In this document: piece after piece, positions 1,142-27,154 of the stretch | Numbering within the stretch: the first letter of the stretch is position 1 | How the letters are laid out: every line of letters starts with the position of its first letter | DNA from: Polaromonas sp. | Lineage (GTDB): Bacteria; Pseudomonadota; Gammaproteobacteria; Burkholderiales; Burkholderiaceae_C | Length of the DNA stretch: 37,895 nt | Assembly: GCA_028291905.1 (NCBI GenBank) | Contig: JAQGNK010000167.1 | Location: 1 to 37,895 of the forward strand | Direction: 5' to 3' | The notes under the pieces: model-generated | Database searches by the model: none | What the model saw: the letters and a program-made list of their open reading frames with translations, nothing else | Told to the model about the DNA's origin: nothing | Made by a program: the position numbers and the translations under genes

Positions 1142-2656
1142 TCAGCTCCCCAGGCGCAGGAATTGCCGCGTGGCATGCAGGCCCGCCGGCGTCCAGTGCA
1201 GGGCAGGCGACATGGCCTGGACCAGCAGCTGCTTGCGGCCAGCCAGGCCGTCAGCGGCGGCCAGCTCTGCCTGCAGCGCCTGCAGGTCGGCATCAAGCAA
1301 CTCATCCTGGGACACATCCAGCAGATGCAACTGGTCCAGGCCCGTCAGGCCGGCTTGCCGCTGCGCCAGCCGCGCACGCGCCCTGAAGCTGGCGCGGCGC
1401 TGGCCAGCCAGCAGCGCCGGCTCGTCGTCATGGGCCTGGCCGTCCGCCGAACCCGCATCGCCGCGAATCCAGTCGTGGACCAGCTGCAGCTCGTACGGGC
1501 TGAAGACGCCGAACATCTCGGCCTTCTCGCCCTGCAGCAGTTTCCAGAAGCGGCTCTCGGACGCCGGCGCGCCGCGCTTGATCCAGCCGGCCTGCTCAAG
1601 CGCCGCCAAAAAAGCCGGCATGCCTTCTGGCTGGCCCAGCCAGTCGTTGACGCTGCGGCCGGCCACGCGGCAGTAATCCGAATGCGCGCCCAGTCCGGTC
1701 GCGCTCTTGCGCGCAAAGAGGCGGGTCACTTCCCGCTCGATGTCAAAACCGGCGATGACCTCGGTGGTGCCAGTGCCGGCGTTGCTGAGCCGAAATCCGC
1801 TTTGCACCCGGCGCCAGAAATCGTCCGGGCTGCCCAGGCGCGGCAGGTTGTCCAGCACCGCCTGCACCGCCCGCCGCGCATGCCCGCTGTCGGCGTTATC
1901 GACGGTGACGTGGAGAGTGAAATAGTAGGGGTCGATGCCCAACTCATTGAGTTCGTAGGCGGTGATCAGAAGATGCAGCGGCAGCTGCTCATAACCCAGG
2001 TTGAAGCCGATCACCTCAGGCAAAAAATCCTCCACGTTCAGGCCCAGGGCAAGCTGCAGCACCCCCTGGGTGTAGAAATCATCGGGCAGCGCGTCCGCCG
2101 GGCTCAGGCCATGGGTGGTCATCAGCCTGCGGTACAGCAGCACATGGTTCTTGTCGGGTCGGCCTTCGCCGAGTTCCTCGACATAGGTGGCGATCAGGTC
2201 GGCAAAACGCGGGTTCCGCCAGTGCGCCAGCACCCCGTGGAGCCAGGCTCCATCGACCAGCTTGGTGGGCGCCACCGCGCGTAAAAAATACAGCGCATGG
2301 GCGCGGTTCTTGAAATAGCGGCGCGGCTGGCCGGCCTTGCGCTCGGCCAGGTAAGAGCGGTATTTGGCGCTGGCCAGCTGTGCCGAATGATGCATCCAGG
2401 CGCTCAGGTCCTGCGGCATCTCAGGCAGGTCGCACGCCTCGGTCTGCGCCTGCTCCAGCGCATGCGCAAGAAAAGCATACCCATCGAGCCGGGCCGCTTC
2501 GTCGGGCGAGGCGGCCAGCAAGCGCTCGTACAACTGGCGGACCTTGCCCTCGGTGGAGGGCGGCGGCAAATTGCGTGGCGGCAAAGGGCTGGCGGGCAGT
2601 GAGCGTGAAGCGCTGTCAGCGGGGGACGGTCTCCATTCGTGGGCGGCAGCAAACAT
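1142..2656 (-). CDS. Iron-containing redox enzyme / heme-oxygenase-like diiron oxidase (Haem_oxygenas_2-like)
   Basis: Motifs YVEELGEGRPDKNHVLLYRRLM, GFNLGYEQLPLHLL and DPYYFTLHVTVDNADSGHARRAVQAV carry the E/H/E/H/D/H ligand pattern of this fold; start placed at MFAAAHEW. Confidence 0.82.
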   Translation of the reverse strand: MFAAAHEWRPSPADSASRSLPASPLPPRNLPPPSTEGKVRQLYERLLAASPDEAARLDGYAFLAHALEQAQTEACDLPEMPQDLSAWMHHSAQLASAKYRSYLAERKAGQPRRYFKNRAHALYFLRAVAPTKLVDGAWLHGVLAHWRNPRFADLIATYVEELGEGRPDKNHVLLYRRLMTTHGLSPADALPDDFYTQGVLQLALGLNVEDFLPEVIGFNLGYEQLPLHLLITAYELNELGIDPYYFTLHVTVDNADSGHARRAVQAVLDNLPRLGSPDDFWRRVQSGFRLSNAGTGTTEVIAGFDIEREVTRLFARKSATGLGAHSDYCRVAGRSVNDWLGQPEGMPAFLAALEQAGWIKRGAPASESRFWKLLQGEKAEMFGVFSPYELQLVHDWIRGDAGSADGQAHDDEPALLAGQRRASFRARARLAQRQAGLTGLDQLHLLDVSQDELLDADLQALQAELAAADGLAGRKQLLVQAMSPALHWTPAGLHATRQFLRLGS

Positions 2657-2802
2657 TGATTTTTGATGGATGTTGAAGAGCTTGCAGTCTGGGCCGGCCA
2701 GCAAGGCGCGTTTATAGGCTTGCTACCCCGCTGCTCGTCGGCGCCTTCCTACCGCTGCCGTCAACCGATTTCCATCAGTCCATTTCCAGCCGGTATGGCG
2801 AT

Positions 2803-2826
2803 GCCTTGCCTGGGCCAGGCCAAGGC
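2803..2826. promoter_or_regulatory. Near-perfect GC-rich palindrome in the spacer between ATP-grasp and diiron oxidase genes
   Basis: gccttgcctgggccaggccaaggc is self-complementary apart from a one-base bulge. Confidence 0.35.
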
Positions 2827-2873
2827 CTGTGCTCCGGCTTCACGCTTGATCTCGGACTGAAATGGAACCGGCA

Positions 2874-4172
2874 TCACAGCCAGCCCAGCGCTGCCAGCCG
2901 CGCCAGGTCGTGTTGCCATACCCGCTCGCCGATGTCCAGGCGGTAGCGCAGGTTGGGCACGACCACCTTGCGCGCCAGCCGGTAGGCCGCGTCGCTGGCG
3001 GCCTGCACGCTGGCGCCGGTGCCGGTCGCCACGCCGACATAGCCGCAGCTGCCGCTGGTCACTAGGTGCCCGCCCAGCCGCGCCACTTCGGCGAAATAGA
3101 GGGCGGCATGGTCAGCGGCCGTCATGCCCGGATGAAAGCAGATCGGCTCGCCCTTCGACAGCTCGGCATAGCCGTGCGAATACGGAAAAGGCGGGACTGT
3201 CAGCACCACGCCGGCGGCAAAGCCGGGCTGGGTGGAGATGCGCAGGCCGTCCCGGCGCAGCATGCGGCGAAAAATCGCTTCCCAGCCTTCTTCGTGCAGC
3301 GCCTCGCAGATTGCAAAGCCGGGGTAGCCGAAGCGGCTGGTGAATTCGAGCGGCCACAAACCGTCCTCATTGGCAATCATGTTCAGGTTGATATAGCCGC
3401 AGTAGCCGCTGTCCCGCAGCAGTGGCGCCACCTTGGCCAGCGAGGCGTCGAAGAGCTTTTCAGCGCCCCGGTAGCTGACGATGGTGCCCATCTCGCCGGT
3501 CAACTCGCCCAGTTCGCCCGGAAAGAACCGCTTGTGCTCGAAGTCGATGCAGGCCGGCGCCAGGAAGTCCTCGCCGTTGAAATAGGCCCCGACGCCGACC
3601 TCCACACCCTGTACGAACTGCATCAGCACGAAGTCGGGCAGCGGCTGCGCGGCATGGTGCATTTGATACATCCCCAGCAGCGCCAGCATGTCGGCGGCGT
3701 CGTCCATCTCGCCGATGTAGTTGCGGCTGCGCGGGCTGTCGGCGCCGTTGAACTTGAGCACAAAGCGCCCGCCCCGCCGGCGCAGGAAATCAATGGCGCT
3801 GGCGTAGTCGGTGAAGCCGTGGCTGGCAGCGGTGCACAGGCCAAAGCCGCGCAGCGCCGCCTGTCCAAATTCGCGTTCGGCCTCCAGCCGGTCGCCCAGG
3901 GCGCTGCCGCCAATCACCTGAAAACCATCCCGCCGCAGCGCATCCTGTGCATGTCCGTTTATGGCTGACTCAAACAAGGCGATGCCATCCACGCCAGCCT
4001 CGCGCAGCCAGCCCAGCTCGGCCTGCCAGTCGTCGGTGAAGTCGAGCATGCCGCCGTACACGTCTTTCGAGGCCTCATGCGCGACGAACACCCTTACCTC
4101 ATGGCCGCGCGCCGCCAGCCCGTGGTACAGGGCGCCCAGGTCGTTGTATTCGCCGATGCCCAGGAACCTCAT
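2874..4172 (-). CDS. ATP-grasp ligase, PurD (phosphoribosylglycinamide synthetase)-like
   Basis: MRFLGIGEYNDLGALYHGLAARGHEVRVFV N-domain; RFVLKFNGADSPRSRNYIGEM and LWPLEFTSRFGYPGF ATP-grasp-like motifs; about 430 aa. Confidence 0.78.
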   Translation of the reverse strand: MRFLGIGEYNDLGALYHGLAARGHEVRVFVAHEASKDVYGGMLDFTDDWQAELGWLREAGVDGIALFESAINGHAQDALRRDGFQVIGGSALGDRLEAEREFGQAALRGFGLCTAASHGFTDYASAIDFLRRRGGRFVLKFNGADSPRSRNYIGEMDDAADMLALLGMYQMHHAAQPLPDFVLMQFVQGVEVGVGAYFNGEDFLAPACIDFEHKRFFPGELGELTGEMGTIVSYRGAEKLFDASLAKVAPLLRDSGYCGYINLNMIANEDGLWPLEFTSRFGYPGFAICEALHEEGWEAIFRRMLRRDGLRISTQPGFAAGVVLTVPPFPYSHGYAELSKGEPICFHPGMTAADHAALYFAEVARLGGHLVTSGSCGYVGVATGTGASVQAASDAAYRLARKVVVPNLRYRLDIGERVWQHDLARLAALGWL

Positions 4173-5146
4173 GGCGCCGGCCCGGCTGGCCCGCCCAGCA
4201 CCAGCGGACGCGTCGCCACCAGCGCCACGGCGGCGATGCGCTCGGCTTGCCGGTAGGCCGGTGCGTCGAGTTCCTCGCCGAACACATCCGGGTCAATCTC
4301 GCGGTAGCTGAAAGGGCAGCCGGCCTGGCGCAGCAGCGCTTGCGCCTCCTGCCCGAACGCATCCTGGCCATCGACCACCGGCGCGCCGGTGTAGAGCACC
4401 AGCCGCCCGCCGGGCGCCAGCCGCGCCAATCCTTCGCGCACGATGCGCAGCGACAGCCCGCTGCCCAGCGGCCCGCCGCCGTGGCGGTAGGTACGCTCGC
4501 CGGCGTCGAGCAGATAGGGCGGGTTGGCGACGATCAGGTCAAAGCCGTCGCCCAGCGCTTCATACAGGTCGCTTTGTTGGAACCGCACCGCCGGCAGGCC
4601 TGCCAGCGCAGCATTGGCGCGGGCAAACTCCAGCGCCTGCGGATTGATGTCGGCCAGCAGCAGCTCCGTGCGGCCCGCCGGGCTGGCCAGCGCCGCCGCG
4701 ATGCCACCGGGGCCGGCGCCGCAGCCGATGTCGAGGATGCGGGTGCCGTCCGGAAGCGGCTGGCGGGCCAACTCTGCTTCGATCAGCGCGGCGAAGCGGT
4801 AGGTATCGGGGCCAAAGAACACCGCGTCCGCTGCGGTCGTGGGATAAGCCGAGTGGGCGTAAAGCTGGCCGCCCAGCGTTGAAAACCGCACCTTGCTGTG
4901 CAGCAGCTCGCCGCGCTGCGCCACCAGGCCGCTGTCACGCAACCAGACCATGGGAGCGGTCGGTAGCAGATCAGCCGGAAACGGACGGCTCCAGCCGAAC
5001 ACATCGCGCAGCGTGCTGGCGACTTCGGCGCCACGCCGCACATTGACGCGGCCATGGGTGGTGGGCGTGACGGTGGTAAAGGCGTAGCCGGCTTGCCGCA
5101 GCCAGCAACCCAGCAAAACCAGCGAATCGGGAACGGGCAGCGTCAT
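4169..5146 (-). CDS. Class I SAM-dependent methyltransferase, PrmC/HemK-like (small MT domain)
   Basis: ILDIGCGAGPGGIAAA (motif I) and FDLIVANPPYLL (NPPY); stop overlaps the ATP-grasp start by 4 nt. Confidence 0.85.
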   Translation of the reverse strand: MTLPVPDSLVLLGCWLRQAGYAFTTVTPTTHGRVNVRRGAEVASTLRDVFGWSRPFPADLLPTAPMVWLRDSGLVAQRGELLHSKVRFSTLGGQLYAHSAYPTTAADAVFFGPDTYRFAALIEAELARQPLPDGTRILDIGCGAGPGGIAAALASPAGRTELLLADINPQALEFARANAALAGLPAVRFQQSDLYEALGDGFDLIVANPPYLLDAGERTYRHGGGPLGSGLSLRIVREGLARLAPGGRLVLYTGAPVVDGQDAFGQEAQALLRQAGCPFSYREIDPDVFGEELDAPAYRQAERIAAVALVATRPLVLGGPAGPAP

Positions 5147-5387: not shown

Positions 5388-6125
5388 CTAGTGGCGCCAG
5401 GAAGCCAGCCCGCCGGCCCGCGGCCCGAGCAGCGCGGTCAGGCTGTGCAGGTCCAGCAAGGTGAAATGCCCCTGGCCCGGCCGCCAGCCGCCGGTGTCGA
5501 TGAAATACACATTGCCCAGCACTTGCATCACCGGCAGCGTGGTGTGGCCATGCACCACGGCGCGGACATGCTTGATGGGGTCTGCATCGCCGCAAAGCAG
5601 GCGCTCCCTGGACCATAGGCAGCAGTCCAGCGCATCATGGGACAAGGGCTGGCGCATCGCGTCCCAGTCGTCGTGCGGACAGTCGGCATGCACCAGGCCG
5701 ACTAGGCCCTTGGGCGTCTGCACCTCCATGGCCACGGGCAGCGCGGCCAGGCGCTCGCCAATGCGCTGGCGCTCATCGCCCCTCACTTGGTCGAGCCACA
5801 GGCCGCCGTTGGCCCGGTGATCGACATCCAGGCACGGGTGGCCCAGCGCGCTGCGCCAGGTCATGAAGTCGTGGTTGCCGCAGATGGCGTGAAACCAGGG
5901 CTTGTCCAGCCAGTCCAGCACCTGCCCGGACTCTGGCCCCCGGTCCACCAGGTCGCCCACCGAGAACAGCCGGTCGGTGGCCGGCGAAAAGCCGATGCCG
6001 TCGAGCGCCCGCTGCAGCGCGCTGAAGGCGCCGTGGATATCGCCCACCGCGAAATCCCGCCCCGCCCGGTTCATGTCGTAGTGGACGAGCGCGGCGTTGA
6101 CCTGGAGGGATTCGGGGGGGTTCAT
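5388..6125 (-). CDS. Metallophosphoesterase / Ser-Thr protein phosphatase family
   Basis: AVGDIHGAF, FSVGDLVDRGPES and AICGNHDFM motifs. Confidence 0.9.
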   Translation of the reverse strand: MNPPESLQVNAALVHYDMNRAGRDFAVGDIHGAFSALQRALDGIGFSPATDRLFSVGDLVDRGPESGQVLDWLDKPWFHAICGNHDFMTWRSALGHPCLDVDHRANGGLWLDQVRGDERQRIGERLAALPVAMEVQTPKGLVGLVHADCPHDDWDAMRQPLSHDALDCCLWSRERLLCGDADPIKHVRAVVHGHTTLPVMQVLGNVYFIDTGGWRPGQGHFTLLDLHSLTALLGPRAGGLASWRH

Positions 6126-6493: not shown

Positions 6494-7033
6494 TCAGGCC
6501 GCGATTTGCAGGGCCTGCGTGGTCACCAGGCGAACCGTCGGCCCAAAGCTTGAGATATTGGCCAGCGTCAGGTTGTGGTGCTGCACAACTTGTTGCGGGC
6601 TCAGCACCGCATTGCCGGCGGACGTGTGCGCGTCCTCGACCAGCCGCACCGGATAGCCCAGCGCCAGGGCGCGGCGGGTAGTGGTGTCGATGCAGAACTC
6701 GCTGTGCATGCCGCAGACGATCAGCTCGGTGATGTTGCGGCGTTGCAGCAGTTCGTGCAGCCCCGTGCCGAGAAATGAATCCGGCGTGGTTTTCCTGACC
6801 CGAAGGTCCTCCGGCCCGGCCTGCAGGCCATCGGCCAATTGCCAGGCGCGGGAGGCGTATTCCAGGTAGCCGGGGCCGGATTCATGCTGGACAAAGATCA
6901 CCGGTGCGCCAGCCTGGCGGGCTTTGGCGGCAACCTGGTTGATGTGGGCGATGACTTCATCGCTTGCGAATGCCTTGCCATCTCCTTCGCAAAGGCCTTG
7001 CTGGACATCGATGATGAGAAGGGCGGTTTTCAT
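6494..7033 (-). CDS. Cysteine hydrolase, isochorismatase family
   Basis: MKTALLIIDVQQGLCEGDG, VRKTTPDSFLGTGL, ELIVCGMHSEFCIDTTTRRAL. Confidence 0.88.
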   Translation of the reverse strand: MKTALLIIDVQQGLCEGDGKAFASDEVIAHINQVAAKARQAGAPVIFVQHESGPGYLEYASRAWQLADGLQAGPEDLRVRKTTPDSFLGTGLHELLQRRNITELIVCGMHSEFCIDTTTRRALALGYPVRLVEDAHTSAGNAVLSPQQVVQHHNLTLANISSFGPTVRLVTTQALQIAA

Positions 7034-7110
7034 AAGGAATCCTGTGCGGGTATGCAACATTTTAGGAACGCTCAAGAAACAGAGCCTGCCTGGCTTGGGC
7101 CTTGTTAACG

Positions 7111-7227: not shown

Positions 7228-9600
7228 TACGCACCATCAATAATGCCGCCATAAGATTGATGGATGCTGATAGCGCTCCCATATTGGGTCGTGAAGCCCT
7301 GCTGGGGTTGGCAGACTGGCTGGCGAGGCGGGCAAGCAATGCGAGCTCAGAGCGAAACGCAGATATGGATCGGGTTGCCGCTCCAAGCGCGGCGCACTGT
7401 GGTGTGCTGCCTGAGCCAGATCGCCTACCGCCAGTGGCAAGCGGCAGCGCAGTCGAAGGAGGCCAATCATGAACGAAAGCAGCAGTCCATCGTTGCCCCA
7501 TCCCAAGATTTACCGCCATCATCAGGAACGGCTGGCGGTGGTGTACGTGCGCCAATCCACACCCCAGCAGATGACGCGCCATCCCGAGTCGACCCGGCTG
7601 CAGTACGGCCTGGTCGATCGCGCCCTGACGCTGGGCTGGTCGCGAGCAGACGTGCTGGTCATCGATGAAGACCTGGGCAAATCGGGCAGCACCGCCCAGG
7701 GGCGCAGCGGCTTTCAACGGCTTGTGACCGAAGTCAGCCTGAACCGGGTCGGACTGGTGCTGGGCATAGAAATGTCGCGCCTGGCGCGCTCGTGCCGCGA
7801 CTGGTACCAGTTGCTTGAAGTGTGCGGGCTGTTTACCACGCTCATTGGCGACTGGGATGGCGTTTACGATCCGGCGGACTACAACGACCGGCTGCTGCTG
7901 GGCTTGAAGGGCACCATGAGTGAGGCTGAGCTTTACCTGATCAAGCAGCGCATGCTCGCGGGCAAGCGGGCCAAGGCCGAGCGCGGTGAGCTGGGCATGG
8001 CGCTGCCGCGTGGCTACATCCGGCAACCTTCCGGCGAGGTCGCCAAGGATCCCGACGCGCAGGTGCAGGGCACCATCGCGCTGGTCTTCAGTCAGTTCGA
8101 GCGTTTGAACACTATCCACGGCTTGCTGCAGTATCTGGTGCGCCACCAGGTCTTGTTGCCCGATCGGCTGCGCGGGGGTCTGCGCAAGGGCGACCTGCAA
8201 TGGCGCCGACCGAACCGTGCGACGCTGAGCGATCTGCTGCACAACCCGATTTATGCCGGCGCCTATGCTTATGGACGCCGGCCCACCGATCCGCGGCGCT
8301 GCAAGCCTGGGCAACCGGGCACAGGCAGGGTGGTGGCCAGGCCGCTGCAATGGGGCATCTTGCACAGGGACCGCTTGCCCAGCTACATAAGCTGGGAACA
8401 ATACGAGCGCAACTTGCGTCAACTGCAGATGAACAATGCCCAGGGCGCCATCCGCCAGGGACCATCACTACTGTCTGGCCTGCTGATTTGTGGACGCTGC
8501 GGACGGCGCATGGCGCCCAACTATCGCAACAGCGGACACCGTTTGCGTTACGAATGCAATCAGATGGCGACCAGTTACGGCCTGTCGCGGTGCCAGTCGC
8601 TGGTGGGCCGCACGCTCGATGAATTTGTGGCGCAGCAGGTGCTGCGTGCGCTGGAGCCGGCCGCCCTGGAGATCAGCCTGCAGGTGGCCGACCAGATCGA
8701 GGCTGAGCGCGCGCAACTGCAGCAGCACTGGCAGCAGCGCCTGGAGCGGGCGCATTATGAAGTGGAGCGGGCTGCGCGGCAATATCAGTGCGTCGAGCCC
8801 GAACACCGCTTGGTGGCGCGAACGCTGGAGCATCAGTGGGAGGACGCCTTGAATGCCGAGTCAGCGCTCAAGGCTGACTACGAGCGCTTCGTGGCCGAGC
8901 ACCCCTGCCGCCTTTCGGCCGAGCAGCGCGAGGCGATCCGCCGGCTGGCCACGGATATTCCAGCACTCTGGCATGGCGCCTGCACCACCGCGGCCGATCG
9001 CCAGGCCATCGTGCGCCAACTCGTCGAGCGTGTCACAGTCACCGTGCAAGGCGACAGCGAGAAGGTCGATGTCCATATCTGCTGGGCCGGCGGTCACAGC
9101 ACACAAGGAACGCTGACCCGACCGGTCGCGCGGCTCGATCAGCTCAGCTACTATCCCGAACTGACAGCCCGCGTGGCCGCGCTGCACGCCCAAGGGCATG
9201 CGGGCCCTGGTATTGCACGCCTTCTCAACGAGGAGGGTTGGCGGCCGGCCAAGCGGTGCGAGACGTTCAACGCGTCAATGGTCGGCGCCTTGCTAGTGAG
9301 GATGGGACTGCGCACCAGGCATCAAACGCCTGCGACGGTGGTGCAAAGGCAAGGCGATGAATGGACGCTGGGCGAGCTGTCGCACCTGCTGGACATGCCG
9401 CAGCCCACGCTGGTTTCCTGGCTTCGCCGCGGCGAGTTGCAGGCCCGGCAAGTGATGAGTCAGTCCCATCGGCTTTGGCTGGTTCACGCTACGGCCCAGG
9501 ATCTGGCGCGGCTGCAGTCACGGCGAAACGCAGCATCGGCAAAAGCCAATGATGAATTCGCCATTTGAGTGTTACGGAGGTTGTATGGCTGGTAGATCTC
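7228..9600 (+). mobile_element. Serine-recombinase element of about 2.37 kb inserted in the IS5/IS4-type transposase remnant
   Basis: Removing this interval with one shared CTC (7225-7227 / 9598-9600) restores in-frame LYCRRNEVERMFRRLKAWQRVFTRYD; imperfect inverted end motif TTG-ATGGTGCGTAGA / TTGTATGGCTGGTAGA. Confidence 0.8.
7469..9568 (+). CDS. Large serine recombinase (resolvase + recombinase + zinc-ribbon domains)
   Basis: AVVYVRQSTPQQ catalytic Y-x-R-x-S; LGIEMSRLARS; LLSGLLICGRCGRRM zinc ribbon; 699 aa. Confidence 0.95.
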   Translation: MNESSSPSLPHPKIYRHHQERLAVVYVRQSTPQQMTRHPESTRLQYGLVDRALTLGWSRADVLVIDEDLGKSGSTAQGRSGFQRLVTEVSLNRVGLVLGIEMSRLARSCRDWYQLLEVCGLFTTLIGDWDGVYDPADYNDRLLLGLKGTMSEAELYLIKQRMLAGKRAKAERGELGMALPRGYIRQPSGEVAKDPDAQVQGTIALVFSQFERLNTIHGLLQYLVRHQVLLPDRLRGGLRKGDLQWRRPNRATLSDLLHNPIYAGAYAYGRRPTDPRRCKPGQPGTGRVVARPLQWGILHRDRLPSYISWEQYERNLRQLQMNNAQGAIRQGPSLLSGLLICGRCGRRMAPNYRNSGHRLRYECNQMATSYGLSRCQSLVGRTLDEFVAQQVLRALEPAALEISLQVADQIEAERAQLQQHWQQRLERAHYEVERAARQYQCVEPEHRLVARTLEHQWEDALNAESALKADYERFVAEHPCRLSAEQREAIRRLATDIPALWHGACTTAADRQAIVRQLVERVTVTVQGDSEKVDVHICWAGGHSTQGTLTRPVARLDQLSYYPELTARVAALHAQGHAGPGIARLLNEEGWRPAKRCETFNASMVGALLVRMGLRTRHQTPATVVQRQGDEWTLGELSHLLDMPQPTLVSWLRRGELQARQVMSQSHRLWLVHATAQDLARLQSRRNAASAKANDEFAI

Positions 9601-15893: not shown

Positions 15894-18800
15894 ATGCTGA
15901 GCCACCTGGGCCTTCGTTCGCGCCTGGCCTTGCTGGTGCTGATTGCCCTGCTGCCGGTCTTTGGCCTTTTCCTTTATTCAGCCGCCGCCAACCGGCAGGC
16001 GGTGGAGACCTTTGCCCAGGCCAGCCTGCGCTCCGAAGCACTGCTGGCCGCAGCCCACCAGCAGCGCCTGGTCGAGCGCATCGCCCAGCTCCTGGCCGAC
16101 ATGGCCAGTACCCCTTCGGTCCAGGACAGCACCAATCGGCTGTGCGTGCAGTACTTCAAGAACCTGCAGGCGCAAAACGCCGGCTATTCCAACCTGGGTG
16201 TCGTGGCGTTGAACGGCAGGCTGTCGTGCGACGCGGCCGACACCGGCGAAGCGGTGGACATCAGCGATCGGGTCTTCTTCAGGAAAGTTCTGGACGAGAA
16301 GAAGTTCTCGATAGGCGAGTACACGGCTTCGGGCCTGGGCGGGCGGCCCGGCATTGCCTTTGGCATGCCGGTTTATAGCAGCCAGCAGGTGCTGACCGGC
16401 GTCGCGTTTGCATCCCTTGATCTGGACGAGGTCGCGAGGGCCTTGGGCCAGGACGAGATTCTGGACGGTGCCAAGCTGCGGGTGATGGACCGGCGCGGCA
16501 GGGTACTGGCGGCCTATCCAAAAACACCCGGCCCGCCGGGCCGGCAGGAGCCCGATGCGCTGGTGGTGGAGGCCGCCCGCATGGCAGCGCCCGGCATGCG
16601 GGAGGCAGTCGATGCCCAGGGCATCGAGCAGGTCTATGCCTATGCCCCGGTCGATGCACCCGGGACGGCAGGCGGCCTGTTCGTGGCCATCAGCGTGCCG
16701 CGCGCCGTCATCACGGCAGCGCCACGCGCGCTCATGCTGGGCAATCTGGCCGCCTTGCTGGCCATGACTACGCTGGGCATGGCCTGCGCATGGGCCCTGG
16801 GCAAGCGCCTGGTGGTCAATCCCGCCAATGAAATCCTGCAGGAAGCGGATCAAATCGCTCATGGCAATTTCGAGCCGCGTGTCAAGGCCAGCCCCGGCAG
16901 CCAGCACGAGATCGGCCGGCTGGGCGCGGCGTTCAACCACATGGCCGAGTCGCTGCAACTGCAGCGCACCAAGCTGGACGCGGCGCTGCGCCAGGCTGAC
17001 GAAGAGCGCGCCATGCTGGACCTGATCCTCAACAGCATGAGCGAGGGCGTGGTGGCCATCGACTGCAGCGACCGCTTCATGCTGTTCAATGCGGCGGCCC
17101 GCAAGATATTTCCACCGCCAGCGGTTGGTGAATCATTTACTCATTGGCGGCGCGACAATCCTCTGCAGGTGGTGAGCACCAAGGCCGTTGACCTTAACGG
17201 GCCGCTGACCCAGACCCTGGCTGGCGCCACCTTTGCCAACCAGGACATGCTGTTCAGCCGGCCCAATGCCCAGGACCGCATCCTGAAGATGAGCGCACGG
17301 CCCCTGCTCGGCCCAGACCGGCAGCAAATCGGCGCCCTGACGGTGTTCACCGATGTCACTGAGCTGAGGGCAGCCGAAAGTTTTGCCCTGGCGCAGGAAA
17401 AAGTGCTGGTGCTGATCGCCGGCGGCGCACCCGCGCGCCAGTCACTCGAGGCGGTGCTGCGCCTGATAGAAAGCAGCGAGCCGCAAAGCCTGTGTTCAAT
17501 TCTGATGGTTGAGGACGGACAGCTGCGCCATGGCATCGCGCCCAGCTTGCCTGCAGACTTTGTGCAGGCGATTGACGGCCTGGCGGTTGCCGAAGGCAGC
17601 GGGGCCTGCGGAACCGCGGCGTTTCGCAAGAAAACCGTCATTGTTGAGGACGTTGAGCAGGACCCGCTGGCGCATGCCCACCTCCCGCTGCTGCAGGCGC
17701 ATGGGCTGCGGGCCTGCTGGAGCACGCCGGTCGTGGCAGGCGACGGCGAAGTGCTCGCCACCTTTGCTATTTACCGCCGCGCACCTGGCCGGCCGCAGGC
17801 CCGGGACCTGACCCTTATTGCCACGGCGACCCGGCTGGCCGGGCTGGTGCTCGAGCGGGTGCGGGCCGAGGCGGCGCTGGTCAGCAGCGAGGCGCGCTTT
17901 CGCGAACTGGCTGAAAACATAGAAGATGTCTTCTACAACGTCGATGTCCGTACCCATCAGATGCATTACATCAGCCCCAGCTACGAAAAAGTCTGGGGCC
18001 GAACTTGCGAAAGCTTGTATGCCCATCCATATTCCTACCTGGAGGCGGTGCTGCCGGCCGACCGTCATATTCTGAAGCTTGTCAACGAGCAACACCTGCT
18101 CGGCAAGCCGACCAGCCTGGAGTACCGCATCGTTCTACCGGACGGCCGGATACGCTGGGTGAACGGCCGCTCCTACCCGATAGTGAACGCCAAGGGCGAG
18201 CTGGAGCGTGTCGTGGGCACCGGCCGGGACATCACCGAGCGCAAGCTGGCGGCCCTGGAGCTGGCCGCCACCTACCGCGCGTTGCAGATGCTGAGCCGCT
18301 CCAGCATTGCCATCAACCGGATCAACGAGGAGGCCGGTTTGCTGGCCGAAGTGTGCCGCGTGGCGGTCGAGGTGGGGGGCTACCGCATGGCCTGGGTGGG
18401 CTATGCGCAGGACGATGAAGCCAAAACCATCACGCCTGCGGCCCATGCGGGCGAGGAACTGGGCTACCTGTCGGCAATCAGCCTTTCGTGGCGCGATGAT
18501 GTGCCCGGCGGGCAGGGGCCGGCGGGCCAGGCCATCCGCACCGGAAAGCCGCAGCAAAGCACCGATATCGGACAATCCGACAACCGGTTCTACTGGAGCC
18601 GCGAAGCCATGGAGCGTGGCTACCACAGCACCCTGATCCTGCCTTTGTGCAACGAGCAGCACAGTTTCGGCGTGCTGGCGCTGTATGCCGGCGACATCCA
18701 GCAGTTCGCCCCCGAGGAGGTCAAGCTCCTGCAGGAACTGGCCGATAACCTGGCCTTCGGCATTCTCAGCCTGCGCGCCCGGCTGGCGCACCATCGCAGC

Positions 18801-19964
18801 GAAGAGGCCGCGCGCCAGGCGGCGGCCCGGCTCAATGAGCAGGCGTCGCTGATCAACCTGTCGCGCGACGCCATCATGGTGCGCAATCTCGACAGGACGC
18901 TGCGCTTCTGGAACAAGGGGGCGGAGCGGCTGTATGGCTGGACGGCAGAGGAGGTGATGGGCAAGACCATGGAGGCGCAGATGTACCGCAGCCCGCAGGT
19001 GCTGATCGCGGTCATGGAGCAGACCCTGGCCGACGGCGGCGAATGGAACGGCGAGCTGGAGCAGGTGACGCGGGACGGCACGTCCGTGCATGTCGAAACC
19101 CGCACGACGGCGGTGCGCGATGCGCAGGGCCGGGTCACCGGCATGCTGGGCATCAACACCGACATCCGGGAGCGCAAACACGCGCGCGAGGAAATCCTTC
19201 GCCTCAACACCAGCCTTGAAGAGCGGGTCGAGCAGCGCACCGCCCAGCTGAAGTTCGCCAACCAGCAGCTCGAAGCCTTCTCCTATTCGGTCTCGCATGA
19301 CCTGCGCAGTCCGCTCAGCGCCATCAACGGCTTCAGCACCCTGCTTGAAAAAGCGCTCAGCAAGCCCGGCGAGCCGCCGCTCACCGACCGCAACCGGCAT
19401 TACCTGGCGCGCATCCGCGCCGGCGTCGGGCAGATGGGCGAGCTGATCGACGCCATGCTGTCGCTGGCCCAGGTGTCGCGCTCGGTCCTGTGCTGGGAAC
19501 AGGTTGACCTCAGTGCCCAGGCCGAAGCGCTGCTGGCGAGCCTGCAGGAGCATGCGCCCGGCCGGGCGGCCCAGCTGCAGGTCGAGCCTGGCCTGGTGGT
19601 GCAGGGCGACCCGCGCCTGCTCAGGCAGGTGCTGGACAACCTGCTGGCCAATGCCTGGAAGTTCACTGCCGGCAAAGCCTGCGCCCGCATCACGCTGGGC
19701 CGCCAGCAAGGCAGCGCGGGCGAGTCGGTTTTCTTCGTGCGCGACAACGGCGCCGGCTTTGACATGGCCTATGCCCCCAAGCTGTTCGGCGCCTTCCAGC
19801 GGCTGCATACCCAGGCTGAATTCGCCGGCACCGGCATTGGCCTGGCCACGGTGCAGCGCATCATCGTGCGCCACGGCGGCCGGGTCTGGGCCGAGTCGGT
19901 CAAGGACGAAGGCGCCACCTTCTACTTCACGCTGGGCGCGGCGACGCCCTTGAATTCGCCCTGA
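15894..19964 (+). CDS. Sensor histidine kinase: TM-Cache-TM-HAMP-PAS-GAF-PAS-GAF-PAS-HisKA-HATPase
   Basis: N-terminal TM, HAMP (NPANEILQEADQIAHGNFEPRVK), PAS segments, H-box FSYSVSHDLRSPLSAINGF, N/G boxes VLDNLLANAWKFT, FFVRDNGAGFDM, GTGIGLATVQRIIVRHGG. Confidence 0.93.
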   Translation: MLSHLGLRSRLALLVLIALLPVFGLFLYSAAANRQAVETFAQASLRSEALLAAAHQQRLVERIAQLLADMASTPSVQDSTNRLCVQYFKNLQAQNAGYSNLGVVALNGRLSCDAADTGEAVDISDRVFFRKVLDEKKFSIGEYTASGLGGRPGIAFGMPVYSSQQVLTGVAFASLDLDEVARALGQDEILDGAKLRVMDRRGRVLAAYPKTPGPPGRQEPDALVVEAARMAAPGMREAVDAQGIEQVYAYAPVDAPGTAGGLFVAISVPRAVITAAPRALMLGNLAALLAMTTLGMACAWALGKRLVVNPANEILQEADQIAHGNFEPRVKASPGSQHEIGRLGAAFNHMAESLQLQRTKLDAALRQADEERAMLDLILNSMSEGVVAIDCSDRFMLFNAAARKIFPPPAVGESFTHWRRDNPLQVVSTKAVDLNGPLTQTLAGATFANQDMLFSRPNAQDRILKMSARPLLGPDRQQIGALTVFTDVTELRAAESFALAQEKVLVLIAGGAPARQSLEAVLRLIESSEPQSLCSILMVEDGQLRHGIAPSLPADFVQAIDGLAVAEGSGACGTAAFRKKTVIVEDVEQDPLAHAHLPLLQAHGLRACWSTPVVAGDGEVLATFAIYRRAPGRPQARDLTLIATATRLAGLVLERVRAEAALVSSEARFRELAENIEDVFYNVDVRTHQMHYISPSYEKVWGRTCESLYAHPYSYLEAVLPADRHILKLVNEQHLLGKPTSLEYRIVLPDGRIRWVNGRSYPIVNAKGELERVVGTGRDITERKLAALELAATYRALQMLSRSSIAINRINEEAGLLAEVCRVAVEVGGYRMAWVGYAQDDEAKTITPAAHAGEELGYLSAISLSWRDDVPGGQGPAGQAIRTGKPQQSTDIGQSDNRFYWSREAMERGYHSTLILPLCNEQHSFGVLALYAGDIQQFAPEEVKLLQELADNLAFGILSLRARLAHHRSEEAARQAAARLNEQASLINLSRDAIMVRNLDRTLRFWNKGAERLYGWTAEEVMGKTMEAQMYRSPQVLIAVMEQTLADGGEWNGELEQVTRDGTSVHVETRTTAVRDAQGRVTGMLGINTDIRERKHAREEILRLNTSLEERVEQRTAQLKFANQQLEAFSYSVSHDLRSPLSAINGFSTLLEKALSKPGEPPLTDRNRHYLARIRAGVGQMGELIDAMLSLAQVSRSVLCWEQVDLSAQAEALLASLQEHAPGRAAQLQVEPGLVVQGDPRLLRQVLDNLLANAWKFTAGKACARITLGRQQGSAGESVFFVRDNGAGFDMAYAPKLFGAFQRLHTQAEFAGTGIGLATVQRIIVRHGGRVWAESVKDEGATFYFTLGAATPLNSP

Positions 19965-21420: not shown

Positions 21421-23106
21421 ATGACCCATTTCACGGTGATTGCCCCGCCCTTCACCAGCCACGTCCGGGCGCTCGAAGCGCTGGCCGGCGGCCTGATCGC
21501 GCGCGGCCACCGGGTCAGCTGGATTCACCAGGCCGATGTCGGGCAGCTGCTGCAGGACAGCCGGATCGAATTCCGTCCCGCCGGCCTGGCCAGCCACCCC
21601 GCCGGCTCGCTGGCGCAAACCGTGGCGCGGGCGGCCAGCCCCGGCGGGCCGCTGGGCCTGGGCCGGGTGATTGCCGATGTGGCCGCCAGCACCGACATGC
21701 TGTGCCGGGAGGGGCCGGCGCTGCTGCGCGCCCTGGGCAGCGAGGCGCTGATTGCCGACCAGATGGAGGCGGCAGGCGGCCTGCTGGCCGAAGGCCTGGG
21801 CCTGCCCTTCATCTCGGTGGCCTGCGCCCTGCCGGTCAACCGCGACCCAAGGGTGCCGCTGCCGGTCATGCCCTGGGGCTATGCGGCAGGCCGGCGCGGC
21901 GAGCAGCTCAACGAAGGCAGCGCGCGGGTGTATGACTGGATGATGCAGCCGCATGCCCGCGTCATCGCCCGCCATGCCCGGGCCTTCGGCCTGCCGCCCA
22001 AGGCCACGCTGGCCGATTGCCTGTCGCCGCTGGCGCAGATCAGCCAGGCCACCCGGTCATTCGATTTCCCGCGCAGCCCGCCGCCGGCCCACTTTCATCC
22101 GGTCGGCCCGCTGCGCCCGCCGCTGGCGCGGGAGCCGGCGCTGGACCTCCCCGTGGACAGCCGCCGGCCTTTCGTCTTCGCCTCGCTCGGCACGCTGCAG
22201 GGCGGGCGCGTCAAGCTGTTCAGGCGCATCGCCCAGGCGTGCAGGGCGCTGGATGCGCAGCTGCTGCTGGCCCACTGCGACCAGCTGGACGCCGGCCAAG
22301 CCGAGGCCCTGCTCCAGGCCGGCGCCACCTGGGTGGCCGGCTTCGCGCCCCAGCGGGCGGCGCTGGCGCGGGCCGATGCGGCCGTCAGCCATGCCGGGCT
22401 GAACACGGTGCTCGATGCGCTGGCAGCCAACACGCCGGTGCTGGCGCTGCCGATAGCCTTCGACCAGCCCGGCGTGGCGGCGCGGCTGGCGCATTGCGGC
22501 GCCGGGCTGCGGCTGCAGCCTGCGCTGGCGAGTGCGGCGGCCATTCAAAAAGCGCTGCGGCGGCTGCTGGAAGAACCCGTTTTCGGCCAGCGCGCAGCGC
22601 TGTTGGGCGCGGACGTGCGGCAGTCCGGCGGCGTCGGGCGGGCTGTCGAAATCATCGAGGCCGCCTTGTCGGCACCCAAACGTCCCCGCCCGGCCCCAGC
22701 CGACGAGACCGCGCTGAGCGGGGGCTGGCGCCGGGCTGACGCGTTTGCCATGGCCGACAACCAAGCCGGAATCAAGCCGCTCGCGGCCACGGGGCAGGGG
22801 CTTGCCGCCCTCGGGCTAGCGCTTGCGCAGATTTTTTCAGCCCCGTTTTCCTCCTTCCCCCGCTGGGGAAAGGCCGGGATGGAGGCCTTCCCGAATCCGC
22901 CTCATCCGGGCGCCAAACAGAGGCCGGACCTGCCTGAAAAGGCTGAAAGCTGGCATTCAAGCACCGCTGGCCCCCATCCCGGCCCGCCCCCAGCGGGGGA
23001 AGGCGCCAGAGCGGCGTGGCTCGAAACGATGTGTGCCGACCGCAGCACTTCCGCAGGAATGCCCGCCTTGCCGCCCAGGCCAGCCGCCGCCAGGGGAAAC
23101 CCATGA
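21421..23106 (+). CDS. crtX: Zeaxanthin glucosyltransferase-like (UGT) with about 140-aa repeat-derived C-terminal extension
   Basis: MTHFTVIAPPFTSHVRALEALAGGLIARGHRVSWIHQ; donor-site region WVAGFAPQRAALARADAAVSHAGLNTVLDALAANTPVLALPIAFDQPGVAARL; in crt cluster. Confidence 0.88.
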   Translation: MTHFTVIAPPFTSHVRALEALAGGLIARGHRVSWIHQADVGQLLQDSRIEFRPAGLASHPAGSLAQTVARAASPGGPLGLGRVIADVAASTDMLCREGPALLRALGSEALIADQMEAAGGLLAEGLGLPFISVACALPVNRDPRVPLPVMPWGYAAGRRGEQLNEGSARVYDWMMQPHARVIARHARAFGLPPKATLADCLSPLAQISQATRSFDFPRSPPPAHFHPVGPLRPPLAREPALDLPVDSRRPFVFASLGTLQGGRVKLFRRIAQACRALDAQLLLAHCDQLDAGQAEALLQAGATWVAGFAPQRAALARADAAVSHAGLNTVLDALAANTPVLALPIAFDQPGVAARLAHCGAGLRLQPALASAAAIQKALRRLLEEPVFGQRAALLGADVRQSGGVGRAVEIIEAALSAPKRPRPAPADETALSGGWRRADAFAMADNQAGIKPLAATGQGLAALGLALAQIFSAPFSSFPRWGKAGMEAFPNPPHPGAKQRPDLPEKAESWHSSTAGPHPGPPPAGEGARAAWLETMCADRSTSAGMPALPPRPAAARGNP

Positions 23107-24431
23107 CCCCGGCGCCGCTGCGCCTGCTGGAGCGGCTCGGCGCCCACCTGCCCGAAGGCACGGCCGCGCCCCGCGATGCCGACCTGATCCTGGCCGGCGG
23201 CGGGCTGGCCAACGGCCTGATCGCCTGGCGCCTGGCGCAGGCCCGGCCCGGGCTGCGCATCCTGCTGCTCGAAAGCGGCAGCGCGCTGGGCGGCAACCAC
23301 ACCTGGTCGTTCCACGACGGCGACCTGACGCCCGCCCAGCACGCCTGGCTGGCGCCACTGGTGGCGCACCGCTGGGCCGGGCACAGCGTGAAGTTTCCCG
23401 GTGGCGAACGCCGCCTGGCCACCGGCTATGCCTCGGTCACGTCAAGTCGCTTCGACGCGGTGCTGCGTTCGGCGCTGCCGGCGCAGGTGCAGGTGCGTTT
23501 TGGCGCGCCGGTCGCCTGGCTGACCGCCAGCGCCGTGACGCTGGCCAGCGGCGAGGTGCTGCGCGCCGGCGCGGTGATCGACGGGCGCGGGCTGCGGCCC
23601 AGCCCCCACCTGAGCCTGGGCTACCAGAAATTCCTCGGCCAGGAGCTGCGCCTGGACGGCCCGCACGGCCTGAGCCAGCCGGTATTGATGGATGCGACCG
23701 TCAAGCAGCACGGCGGCTACCGCTTCATCTACCTGCTGCCCTTCAGCGCCGACACGCTGCTGGTCGAGGACACCTGCTACGCCGACGATGAACTGCTTGA
23801 CGCCGACCGGCTGCGCGCCGGCATTGCCGACTATGCCCAGGCACGCGGCTGGACCGTGGCCGAGGTGCTGCGCGAAGAGCGGGGCGTGCTGCCGATCACG
23901 CTGGACGGCGATATCGAAGCCTACTGGCGCGAAGCCCACGGCGTGGCGCGCGCCGGGCTGGCGGCGGGCCTGTTCCATGCCACCACCGGCTACTCGCTGC
24001 CCAGCGCGGTGCGGCTGGCCGACCTGATCGCCTCGCTGCCCGACCTGTCGAGCGCGCCGCTGTTCGACGCCATCCGGGGGCATGCCCTGGCGCAATGGCG
24101 GGCGCAGGGGTTTTTCAGGCTGCTCAACCGCATGCTGTTCCGGGCCTGCGCGCCCGGGCAGCGCTGGCGCGTGATGCAGCGCTTCTACGGCCTGCCGGCG
24201 CCGCTGATCGAACGGTTCTATGCGGCGCGCCTGGGCCTGCTCGACAAGGCGCGCCTCCTGGCCGGCAAGCCGCCGGTGCCCGTGGGCGCGGCCTGGCGCG
24301 CCAGCTGGCCGGCACCAGCGGGCCAGGGCGGCGGCCTTGCCGGCAGCGCGGCCAGGGAAGACAAAAACGGCAAATCCGGTGTTTCCAGCACCTCCGACAG
24401 CCTGGAGGGAATTCATCCTGACGTGCGATAG
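23103..24431 (+). CDS. crtY: Lycopene beta-cyclase
   Basis: DLILAGGGLANGLIAWRL; GGNHTWSFHDGD; YRFIYLLPFSADTLLVEDTCYAD; ATTGYSLPSAVRLAD; ATGA overlap with crtX. Confidence 0.93.
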   Translation: MTPAPLRLLERLGAHLPEGTAAPRDADLILAGGGLANGLIAWRLAQARPGLRILLLESGSALGGNHTWSFHDGDLTPAQHAWLAPLVAHRWAGHSVKFPGGERRLATGYASVTSSRFDAVLRSALPAQVQVRFGAPVAWLTASAVTLASGEVLRAGAVIDGRGLRPSPHLSLGYQKFLGQELRLDGPHGLSQPVLMDATVKQHGGYRFIYLLPFSADTLLVEDTCYADDELLDADRLRAGIADYAQARGWTVAEVLREERGVLPITLDGDIEAYWREAHGVARAGLAAGLFHATTGYSLPSAVRLADLIASLPDLSSAPLFDAIRGHALAQWRAQGFFRLLNRMLFRACAPGQRWRVMQRFYGLPAPLIERFYAARLGLLDKARLLAGKPPVPVGAAWRASWPAPAGQGGGLAGSAAREDKNGKSGVSSTSDSLEGIHPDVR

Positions 24432-24719
24432 CAGGGGTTCTGCAATGCGCCTGGTTGCTACTGAATTCATAGCTGCTTGCGCACTGTCTGCATACGCCAA
24501 AGGCCTGTTTGACCTGATTGGCCAGCGGCCTGGGATGTTGATCCCCGTGTCATTCCCGCGAAGGCGGGAATCCAGCCGGAGCCGGGCAGGGAGGCACTGG
24601 AGTCCCTCCTTCCTCGGGAAGGACGGTTTGTGGCGTCTGAGGCAGAGAGTGAACCGGGCTGCCTGATGCCCAGAAAAGTTGTTTGCCGGTTAAAACGAAA
24701 ACGCCCTAGAAAGCAATTC

Positions 24720-26204
24720 ATGACTTCTTCTTCAAAAACAGCCGCCGTCATCGGCGCCGGCTTCGGCGGCATCGCGCTGGCCATCCGGCTGCAGGCGGCA
24801 GGGGTGCAGACCACGCTGTTCGAGGCGCGGGACAAGCCCGGCGGGCGCGCCTATGTCTATGAAGACCAGGGCTTCACCTTCGACGCCGGCCCGACCGTCA
24901 TCACCGACCCGAGCGCGCTCGAAGAGCTGTTCGCACTTGGCGGCCGGCGCATGGCCGACTATGTGGAGCTGCTGCCGGTCACGCCTTTTTACCGGCTGTG
25001 CTGGGAGGACGGCACGCATTTCGACTATGCCAATGACCAGGAGGCGCTGGACCGGCAGATCCATGCCCGCCACCCGGCCGACGTGGCGGGCTACCGGCGC
25101 TTCCTGGCCTATTCGCAGGCGGTGTTCGAGGAAGGCTACCTGAAGCTGGGCACCGTGCCCTTCCTCAACTTTCGCAGCATGGTGCAGGCCGGGCCCCAGC
25201 TGGCCAAGCTGCAGGCCTGGCGCAGCGTCTATTCGATGGTCTCCAAGTTCATCGCCGACGAAAAGCTGCGGCAGGTGTTTTCGTTTCACTCGCTGCTGGT
25301 GGGCGGCAACCCGTTCGCCACCTCGTCAATCTACGCGCTGATCCATGCGCTGGAGCGCAAATGGGGCGTGTGGTTTCCACGCGGCGGCACCGGGGCGCTG
25401 GTGCGCGGCCTGCTGCGGCTGTTCGAGGATTTGGGCGGCACGGTGCGGCTGAACGCGCCGGTCGAGCGCATCGAACTCAGCAACGGGCGGGCCAGCGCGG
25501 TGGTGGTGCATGGCCAGGCGCTGCCGTTCGGCCAGGTGGCGTCGAACGGCGACGTGGTGCACACCTACGAGCAGCTGCTGGGCCATGCGCCACGCGGCGT
25601 TGCAGAGGCCAAGCGGCTCAAGTCCCGGCGCTTCAGCATGTCGCTGTTCGTGGTGCATTTCGGCCTGAGCACGCCCCAGCCGCAGCTGGCGCACCACACG
25701 GTCTGCTTCGGGCCGCGCTACCGCGAGCTGATCCACGACATCTTTCACGGCAGCGCGCTGGCCGATGATTTCTCGCTCTACCTGCACGCGCCCTGCGCCA
25801 CCGACCCGTCGCTGGCGCCGCCGGGGTGCTCCAGCCACTATGTGCTGGCGCCGGTGCCGCACCTGGGCCAGGCGCCGCTGGACTGGAAAATTGAAGGCCC
25901 GCTGCTGCGGGACCGCATCCTGGCCTACCTGGAGCAGCGCTACATCCCCAACCTGCGGCAGGACCTGGTCACCTGCCGCATCTTCACCCCGGCCGACTTC
26001 AAGACCGAGCTGTCGGCGCACCTGGGCTCGGCCTTTTCGCTGGAGCCGCTGCTCACGCAAAGCGCCTGGTTCCGCAGCCACAACCGTGACGACGTGATTC
26101 CCAACCTGTACATCGTCGGCGCCGGCACCCATCCGGGCGCCGGCGTGCCCGGCGTGGTCGGCTCGGCCAAGGCCACCGCCGGCCTGATGCTGGAGGACGC
26201 ATGA
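24720..26204 (+). CDS. crtI: Phytoene desaturase
   Basis: AAVIGAGFGGIALAIRLQAAGVQTTLFEARDKPGGRAYVYEDQGFTFDAGPTVITDP; YIVGAGTHPGAGVPGVVGSAKATAGLM. Confidence 0.96.
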   Translation: MTSSSKTAAVIGAGFGGIALAIRLQAAGVQTTLFEARDKPGGRAYVYEDQGFTFDAGPTVITDPSALEELFALGGRRMADYVELLPVTPFYRLCWEDGTHFDYANDQEALDRQIHARHPADVAGYRRFLAYSQAVFEEGYLKLGTVPFLNFRSMVQAGPQLAKLQAWRSVYSMVSKFIADEKLRQVFSFHSLLVGGNPFATSSIYALIHALERKWGVWFPRGGTGALVRGLLRLFEDLGGTVRLNAPVERIELSNGRASAVVVHGQALPFGQVASNGDVVHTYEQLLGHAPRGVAEAKRLKSRRFSMSLFVVHFGLSTPQPQLAHHTVCFGPRYRELIHDIFHGSALADDFSLYLHAPCATDPSLAPPGCSSHYVLAPVPHLGQAPLDWKIEGPLLRDRILAYLEQRYIPNLRQDLVTCRIFTPADFKTELSAHLGSAFSLEPLLTQSAWFRSHNRDDVIPNLYIVGAGTHPGAGVPGVVGSAKATAGLMLEDA

Positions 26205-27154
26205 CGGTCGATGCCGACGTGGTGGCCCAGGCCACCCAGACGATCAAAGCCGGCTCCAAGAGTTTCGCGGTGGCGGCGCGGCTGTTCGACGAGGCCACCC
26301 GCCAGAGCGCGGTGATGCTCTACGCCTGGTGCCGCCATTGCGACGATGTGGTCGATGGCCAGCAGCTCGGCCACGGCCAGCTGGTGGGCGACCGCAGCGG
26401 CGGCCTGGCCCGGCTGGCGGCGCTGGAGCAGGCCACGCGGCGGGCCTGCGCCGGTCAGCCGGGCGGCGATCCGCTAGTGCCGGCGGACCCGGTGTTCGCC
26501 GGCTTGGGGGAAGTGGTGCGCCGCCACGCCATTCCCGAGCGCTACCTGCTGGAGCATCTGGCCGGCTTTCGCATGGATGTCGAGGGCCGGCACTACGCCA
26601 GCCTGGACGACACGCTGGCTTACTGCTGGCGCGTGGCCGGCGTGGTCGGCGTGATGATGGCGATGGTCATGGGCACCCGGCAGCCGGCCACGCTGGACCG
26701 TGCCGCTGACCTGGGGATGGCCTTTCAGCTGACCAACATCGCCCGGGATGTGGTGGAAGACGCCGGCATCGGCCGCATCTACCTGCCGGCCGACTGGCTG
26801 CGGGAGGAAGGACTCACCGGCCTGGCCGATGTGCTGGATTCGCGGCATCGCCCGGCCCTCGGGCGCGTCGCGGCGCGGCTGGTGGATGCGGCCGATCCGT
26901 ATTACCGCTCGGCCGTGGCCGGCATCGGCGAGCTGCCGCTGCGCTCGGCCTGGTCGATTGCCACGGCGCGCGGTGTCTATCGGGACATCGGGCGCAAGGT
27001 CAAGGTTCATGGCGCCCATGCCTGGGACAGTCGCCTCTCGACCAGCCGCATGGGCAAGCTCTGGTTCCTGGCACGCGGCGCGGCGGTGGCCGTGGCGGCG
27101 CATGGGCTCAAGCCGCTGCCGCGGGCTGACAAGCTGTGGCAGCGCCCGCTGTGA
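26201..27154 (+). CDS. crtB: Phytoene synthase
   Basis: SKSFAVAARLFDEATRQSAVMLYAWCRHCDDVVDGQ; GMAFQLTNIARDVVEDAGIGRIYLPADWL; overlaps crtI stop. Confidence 0.96.
   Translation: MTVDADVVAQATQTIKAGSKSFAVAARLFDEATRQSAVMLYAWCRHCDDVVDGQQLGHGQLVGDRSGGLARLAALEQATRRACAGQPGGDPLVPADPVFAGLGEVVRRHAIPERYLLEHLAGFRMDVEGRHYASLDDTLAYCWRVAGVVGVMMAMVMGTRQPATLDRAADLGMAFQLTNIARDVVEDAGIGRIYLPADWLREEGLTGLADVLDSRHRPALGRVAARLVDAADPYYRSAVAGIGELPLRSAWSIATARGVYRDIGRKVKVHGAHAWDSRLSTSRMGKLWFLARGAAVAVAAHGLKPLPRADKLWQRPL

Follow-up and report, generated by a model that had tools for sequence, protein, structure and literature searches.

A methyltransferase, a PurD-like ATP-grasp protein and a heme-oxygenase-like diiron protein: a candidate small biosynthetic unit in Polaromonas

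Three described systems are closest to a trio of genes on the minus strand of a 37,895-nt stretch from a metagenome-assembled genome (MAG) of Polaromonas sp. (the whole stretch is called the window below), which encodes a methyltransferase (MT), a PurD-like ATP-grasp protein and a heme-oxygenase-like diiron oxidase/oxygenase (HDO). In the streptozotocin pathway, which we liken to the trio by described role, an enzyme that N-methylates the guanidino group of arginine is paired with an HDO N-oxygenase (SznE/SznF, also named StzE/StzF; PMC11705231). HrmI and BelK, the HDOs of hormaomycin and belactosin, convert L-lysine to 6-nitronorleucine, and the peptide bonds of belactosin are attributed to ATP-grasp ligases (PMC10764440). 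The mangotoxin mbo cluster encodes the HDO MboA together with the ATP-grasp proteins MboC and MboD, and at least 25 types of HDO/ATP-grasp cluster have been reported (PMC13185094). Combinations of this kind are already known as a class, of which the window trio is a variant that may be one of the reported types; apart from a review and the report on mangotoxin, our literature searches for the combination returned nothing. We give about even odds to the reading that the three genes are an uncharacterised small biosynthetic unit, in which MT and HDO act on a guanidino or other basic amino acid that the ATP-grasp enzyme then ligates. The features of the locus are as follows, "long" denoting the HDO type of the window and "short" a type of about 300 aa.

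4169..5146, minus strand: MT, a predicted class I S-adenosylmethionine (SAM)-dependent N-methyltransferase with MTS fold and NPPY motif, 325 aa (PF05175, 2.4e-16)
4169..4172, minus strand: 4-nt ATGA overlap of the MT stop and the ATP-grasp start
2874..4172, minus strand: ATP-grasp, a predicted PurD-like carboxylate-amine ligase with PurD-like fold, 432 aa (GARS_A/GARS_C, about 3e-8)
2657..2873, minus strand: 217-nt gap from the ATP-grasp stop to the HDO start, the latter taken from a conserved ATG
1142..2656, minus strand: HDO, long type, 504 aa, probably of the N-oxygenase branch (PF14518, 4.5e-33)

The original prediction described three open reading frames on one strand, with a 4-nt overlap of MT and ATP-grasp and the HDO next in line, and this layout stands after correction of the HDO start. 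The TTG at 2704 was dropped in favor of the ATG at 2656, which is common to the orthologues: the protein then begins MFAAAHEW..., and its relatives start with MFVAAHEW or MYIADHEW, so that the only overlap left is that between MT and ATP-grasp. GC content at the third codon position is 0.82-0.84, as is typical of coding DNA, and orthologues in several genera with 55-86% protein identity exclude chance reading frames.

The co-conservation of the genes is firm, and its core is the pair of MT and HDO, to which the ATP-grasp gene is an optional add-on. Among 87 Polaromonas genomes, the window's own included, 17 encode MT and 23 a PF14518 protein, and 16 have the two together (Fisher p 3e-11; Fisher p-values assume independent genomes and are inflated by shared ancestry). 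A survey of 399 sampled Pseudomonadota genomes, again including that of the window, found PF14518 in 107 (a background of 27%) and in 17 of the 18 genomes with MT (p 3.5e-9 without the window), and the HDO gene is adjacent to MT at 14 of the 17 MT loci other than the window. The ATP-grasp protein is present in none of the other 398 genomes. Within Polaromonas its orthologues are found in eight genomes with 67-86% identity (one fragment at 73%), and HDO is the next gene in 8/8 (genome-level p 8e-6). In four of the eight (the window, G088, G090 and G086) the gene immediately upstream is MT, and G061 and G074 carry MT at another site of the genome; it was not found in the remaining two, which are fragmented MAGs whose contigs end there. 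The order MT, ATP-grasp, HDO is kept in Polaromonas, Ramlibacter and Acidovorax. Five Acidovorax strains, whose records have no MAG label, and three MAGs under the name Ramlibacter are among the loci with these genes, and the flanking genes vary. The neighborhood of HDO and ATP-grasp ligase, retained from genus to genus, is the arrangement of an HDO/ATP-grasp biosynthetic cluster. The expectation that the trio would be conserved together holds for the unit in Comamonadaceae, with the ATP-grasp gene as an optional member.

The pairing extends well beyond this family. Among 80 ATP-grasp loci taken from genome contigs, the same HDO is found at 17 and MT at 13. Fourteen of the 30 ATP-grasp genomes outside Comamonadaceae have a close MT, and 13 of these, Methylocystis included, carry a short HDO beside it. 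The order is MT, short HDO, ATP-grasp in Methylocystis and short HDO, ATP-grasp with a convergent MT at locus L143, the fourteenth case, and Acetobacteraceae have pairs of MT and short HDO in genomes whose ATP-grasp gene lies elsewhere. Some Polaromonas strains also have MT and HDO of either the long or the short type without ATP-grasp. The MT tree requires a minimum of two to three switches between HDO types on well-supported branches, so that MT kept an HDO partner although the partner itself was exchanged repeatedly.

This distribution could also be explained by a two-gene stress module of MT and HDO (protectant, radical or NO chemistry), with the ATP-grasp gene as an independent hitch-hiker in Comamonadaceae. 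MT-HDO pairs without ATP-grasp are indeed widespread, and ATP-grasp genes without MT or HDO occur in DPANN archaea, the Candidate Phyla Radiation (CPR) and some Roseomonas genomes; together these weigh against the proposed unit, as the role of the ATP-grasp protein may be only loosely tied to the pair. Long-type relatives on plasmids of Acinetobacter (L006) and of a Comamonadaceae bacterium (L005) have no ATP-grasp gene or close MT nearby, so that the HDO can also occur alone. Moreover, Ku/LigD, hemerythrin, catalase and trehalose genes are found near MT-HDO in other genomes. The hitch-hiker scenario is nevertheless rather improbable, given that the ATP-grasp gene directly adjoins HDO in several genera despite differing flanks, stands beside the other HDO type in Methylocystis and at L143, and overlaps MT by 4 nt in the window. 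What surrounds the pair in other genomes suggests stress functions rather than the metallophore or signal that had been suggested as product, a role that is unsupported by anything we found. Judged by eye and without a profile search, the listed neighbors of the trio loci include no recognizable TonB receptor or siderophore gene, and the metallophore was rejected.

The plasmid-borne long HDOs of L006 and L005 sit in stress-like islands with catalase, trehalose, YsnF/AvaK and ferritin-like genes.

The window HDO matches PF14518 with 115 bits (cut-off 28.9). Its residues E161, H171, E223, H249, D253 and H259 are invariant in 15 orthologues and fit the six metal ligands of SznF (E215, H225, E281, H311, D315 and H318), the last histidine being offset by a 3-residue insertion; D256 is invariant as well. 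The diiron site of the original prediction is thus borne out at the level of aligned residues, as a predicted site with conserved putative ligands. Neither the long nor the short type has a match in NCBIfam. The MT-linked short HDOs are homologues of HrmI over a stretch of about 230 residues (1.1e-28), and a Foldseek search with the AlphaFold2 model of the long type returned HrmI, RohS and SznF, all N-oxygenases, as top matches with weak E-values of 0.019-0.2. On these two grounds N-oxygenase chemistry is probable. The first interpretation had left the choice between N-oxygenases and enzymes that cleave C-C bonds; these results narrow it to the branch of HrmI, RohS and SznF and disfavor UndA- or BesC-type cleavage.

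Several properties of the window HDO count against this placement. The model is mediocre, with a predicted local distance difference test (pLDDT) score of 72.6 that drops below 50 for residues 248-257, and the insertion in the last ligand helix coincides with this poorly modelled segment. The protein shares no more than some 18% identity with the HrmI-like short type, neither a single-sequence search nor one with its own profile found relatives in the Protein Data Bank (PDB), and no pairwise sequence match to SznF was detectable. In contrast to SznF, which has a C-terminal cupin, PF14518 was the sole domain found.

The MT combines the SAM fold of PF05175 with an NPPY motif, the two marks of the NPPY N-methyltransferase superfamily. 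This motif is typical of methylation at planar nitrogens; it is kept across 21 MT relatives, with NPPF in two, and an N-terminal region of the MT's own is conserved, too. The best PDB profile matches are RsmC, HemK/PrmC and a gentamicin N-methyltransferase, which might suggest an RNA or protein methyltransferase, with the HDO as a sensor or detoxifying oxidase and no metabolite at all. The protein, however, scores 71.6 bits against the NCBIfam PrmC equivalog cut-off of 199.1 and also stays under the curated cut-off of RsmC, its sporadic presence (17/87 Polaromonas) is not that of a housekeeping gene, it co-occurs with an HDO of the N-oxygenase type, and in Legionella a dimethylargininase-like domain is joined to it. 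A macromolecular target is therefore very unlikely.

The PurD fold of the ATP-grasp protein is predicted with confidence: the AlphaFold2 model has a pLDDT of 92.6, glycinamide ribonucleotide (GAR) synthetases are its top Foldseek matches (E about 1e-30), and the ATP-grasp core retains invariant K140, E191 and E276 as ATP-binding lysine and glutamates. It shares the overall fold and this core with PurD and differs from it in other respects. The profile search that detected GARS_A and GARS_C gave no match to GARS_N, RFGDPE of PurD reads RFGYPG and TGGMG reads TGEMG, and the score of 86.3 bits is far below the PurD equivalog cut-off of 288. The labels "PurD-like" and "PrmC-like" of the original prediction are hence valid at the level of the fold only, because both proteins fail the curated equivalog cut-offs. 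The same kind of non-PurD paralogue has been noted in haloarchaea (PMC3261824). A role in ligation appears somewhat more probable than not, based on the PurD fold with its three invariant residues and on a YbdK carboxylate-amine ligase gene immediately beside MT-HDO at five gammaproteobacterial loci of the phylum survey. YbdK could be a functional stand-in for ATP-grasp; alternatively, and less favorably for the ligase assignment, it may be a passenger of a stress island.

Members of the PurD-like family occur widely among DPANN archaea, Patescibacteria and other bacteria, and the genomes tested there lack a PF14518 HDO. A plasmid copy in Sphingomonas daechungensis (L008:7217-10301) has its ATP-grasp gene, and apparently also the HDO gene, in broken frames, indicative of a pseudogene or a sequencing error.

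Clues to the substrate come from neighbors of the MT. Of the sampled MT genomes, G290 alone lacks PF14518 at the threshold applied; on one strand and in a row it encodes a GntA-type guanidine N-hydroxylase, MT and an EgtD-type histidine methyltransferase (L195:6017-8893, upstream to downstream). The GntA-type protein, directly upstream of MT, scores 236 bits against a cut-off of 145, and the GntA heme family is reported to hydroxylate the guanidine N-H (PMC12866846). On a plasmid of Legionella sainthelensi, a domain resembling dimethylargininase and arginine dihydrolase, with scores under the cut-offs of these families, is fused to MT; a short HDO comes next, and LigD and Ku lie close by. Plasmid pKN1 of Sphingobium yanoikuyae carries a row of cphA, isoaspartyl peptidase, cyanophycinase, MT, HDO and a dicarboxylate symporter, and cphA and cyanophycinase also lie beside HDO-MT in G430; cyanophycin is a polymer of aspartate and arginine. 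Because of the GntA-type gene, the Legionella fusion and the cyanophycin loci, a guanidino substrate has a roughly even chance, drawn from a handful of loci. Each of these clues stems from one or two relatives and none from the window locus, and GntA takes the place of HDO in a single genome, all of which speaks against giving them more weight.

The HDO might instead oxidize a non-guanidino substrate, for example the epsilon-amine of lysine to a nitro or hydroxylamine group, with MT and ligase completing a small belactosin-like peptide. HrmI, the nearest solved HDO, makes 6-nitronorleucine, and belactosin pairs an HDO of the HrmI/BelK type with ATP-grasp ligases (PMC10764440). The short MT-linked HDOs share this ancestry; the window HDO, in contrast, is a distant long type, and the constant partner in the MT group is a methyltransferase. 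Since the neighbors listed above indicate arginine, and no cyclopropanase of the BelL/HrmJ type was recognized among them (nor was a nonribosomal peptide synthetase), we consider lysine oxidation unlikely, albeit the least so of the three alternatives. The resemblance to the mbo cluster likewise ends with the HDO and its ATP-grasp partner, as the window has a PurD-like ATP-grasp protein plus a methyltransferase, and no MboB-type redox partner or MboE-type enzyme was recognized beside its genes.

In the preferred pathway, the HDO would act on a basic amino acid or dipeptide and, with O2 and its diiron site, oxygenate a nitrogen in the side chain; an arginine-type guanidino group is the most likely target. 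The MT would methylate a planar nitrogen of the same molecule, as in the SznE/SznF pair, and the ATP-grasp enzyme would activate a carboxylate as acyl phosphate and couple it to an amine, yielding a small amide or peptide. The original proposal of an amino acid that is ligated, methylated and oxidized fits, by analogy, the known HDO/ATP-grasp pathways of belactosin and mangotoxin. More tentatively, the locus could belong to a widespread undescribed pathway of Alpha-, Beta- and Gammaproteobacteria, often encoded close to stress genes, in which arginine or a dipeptide containing it is N-methylated and N-oxygenated. Its products might release NO or contain an N-N bond; the N-oxygenase would be interchangeable (either HDO type or a heme enzyme like GntA), and the window would add a new ligase derived from PurD. 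A pair of MT and N-oxygenase that recurs in roughly one in 20 sampled Pseudomonadota would thereby gain concrete, testable chemistry. The exchange of non-homologous N-oxygenases beside one MT, if true, would guide to the substrate, and the PurD-derived ligase family, which is also present in archaea and candidate phyla, would obtain its first functional lead.

Two genes lie upstream of the trio:

5388-6125: calcineurin-like phosphatase
6494-7075: isochorismatase-like hydrolase

Both were rejected as pathway members, since they are not kept beside the trio outside Polaromonas. The same applies to the permease-like gene downstream (recognized from its sequence, not profiled), which adjoins the trio only in this genus. 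A large serine recombinase (Resolvase/Recombinase, 699 aa) near the trio at 7469-9568 marks a possible boundary of a mobile element. Farther along, the window contains a large sensor histidine kinase with Cache, HAMP, GAF and PAS domains (15894-19964) and a set of carotenoid genes (23016-27154) comprising lycopene cyclase, a desaturase candidate of the amine oxidoreductase family and phytoene synthase.

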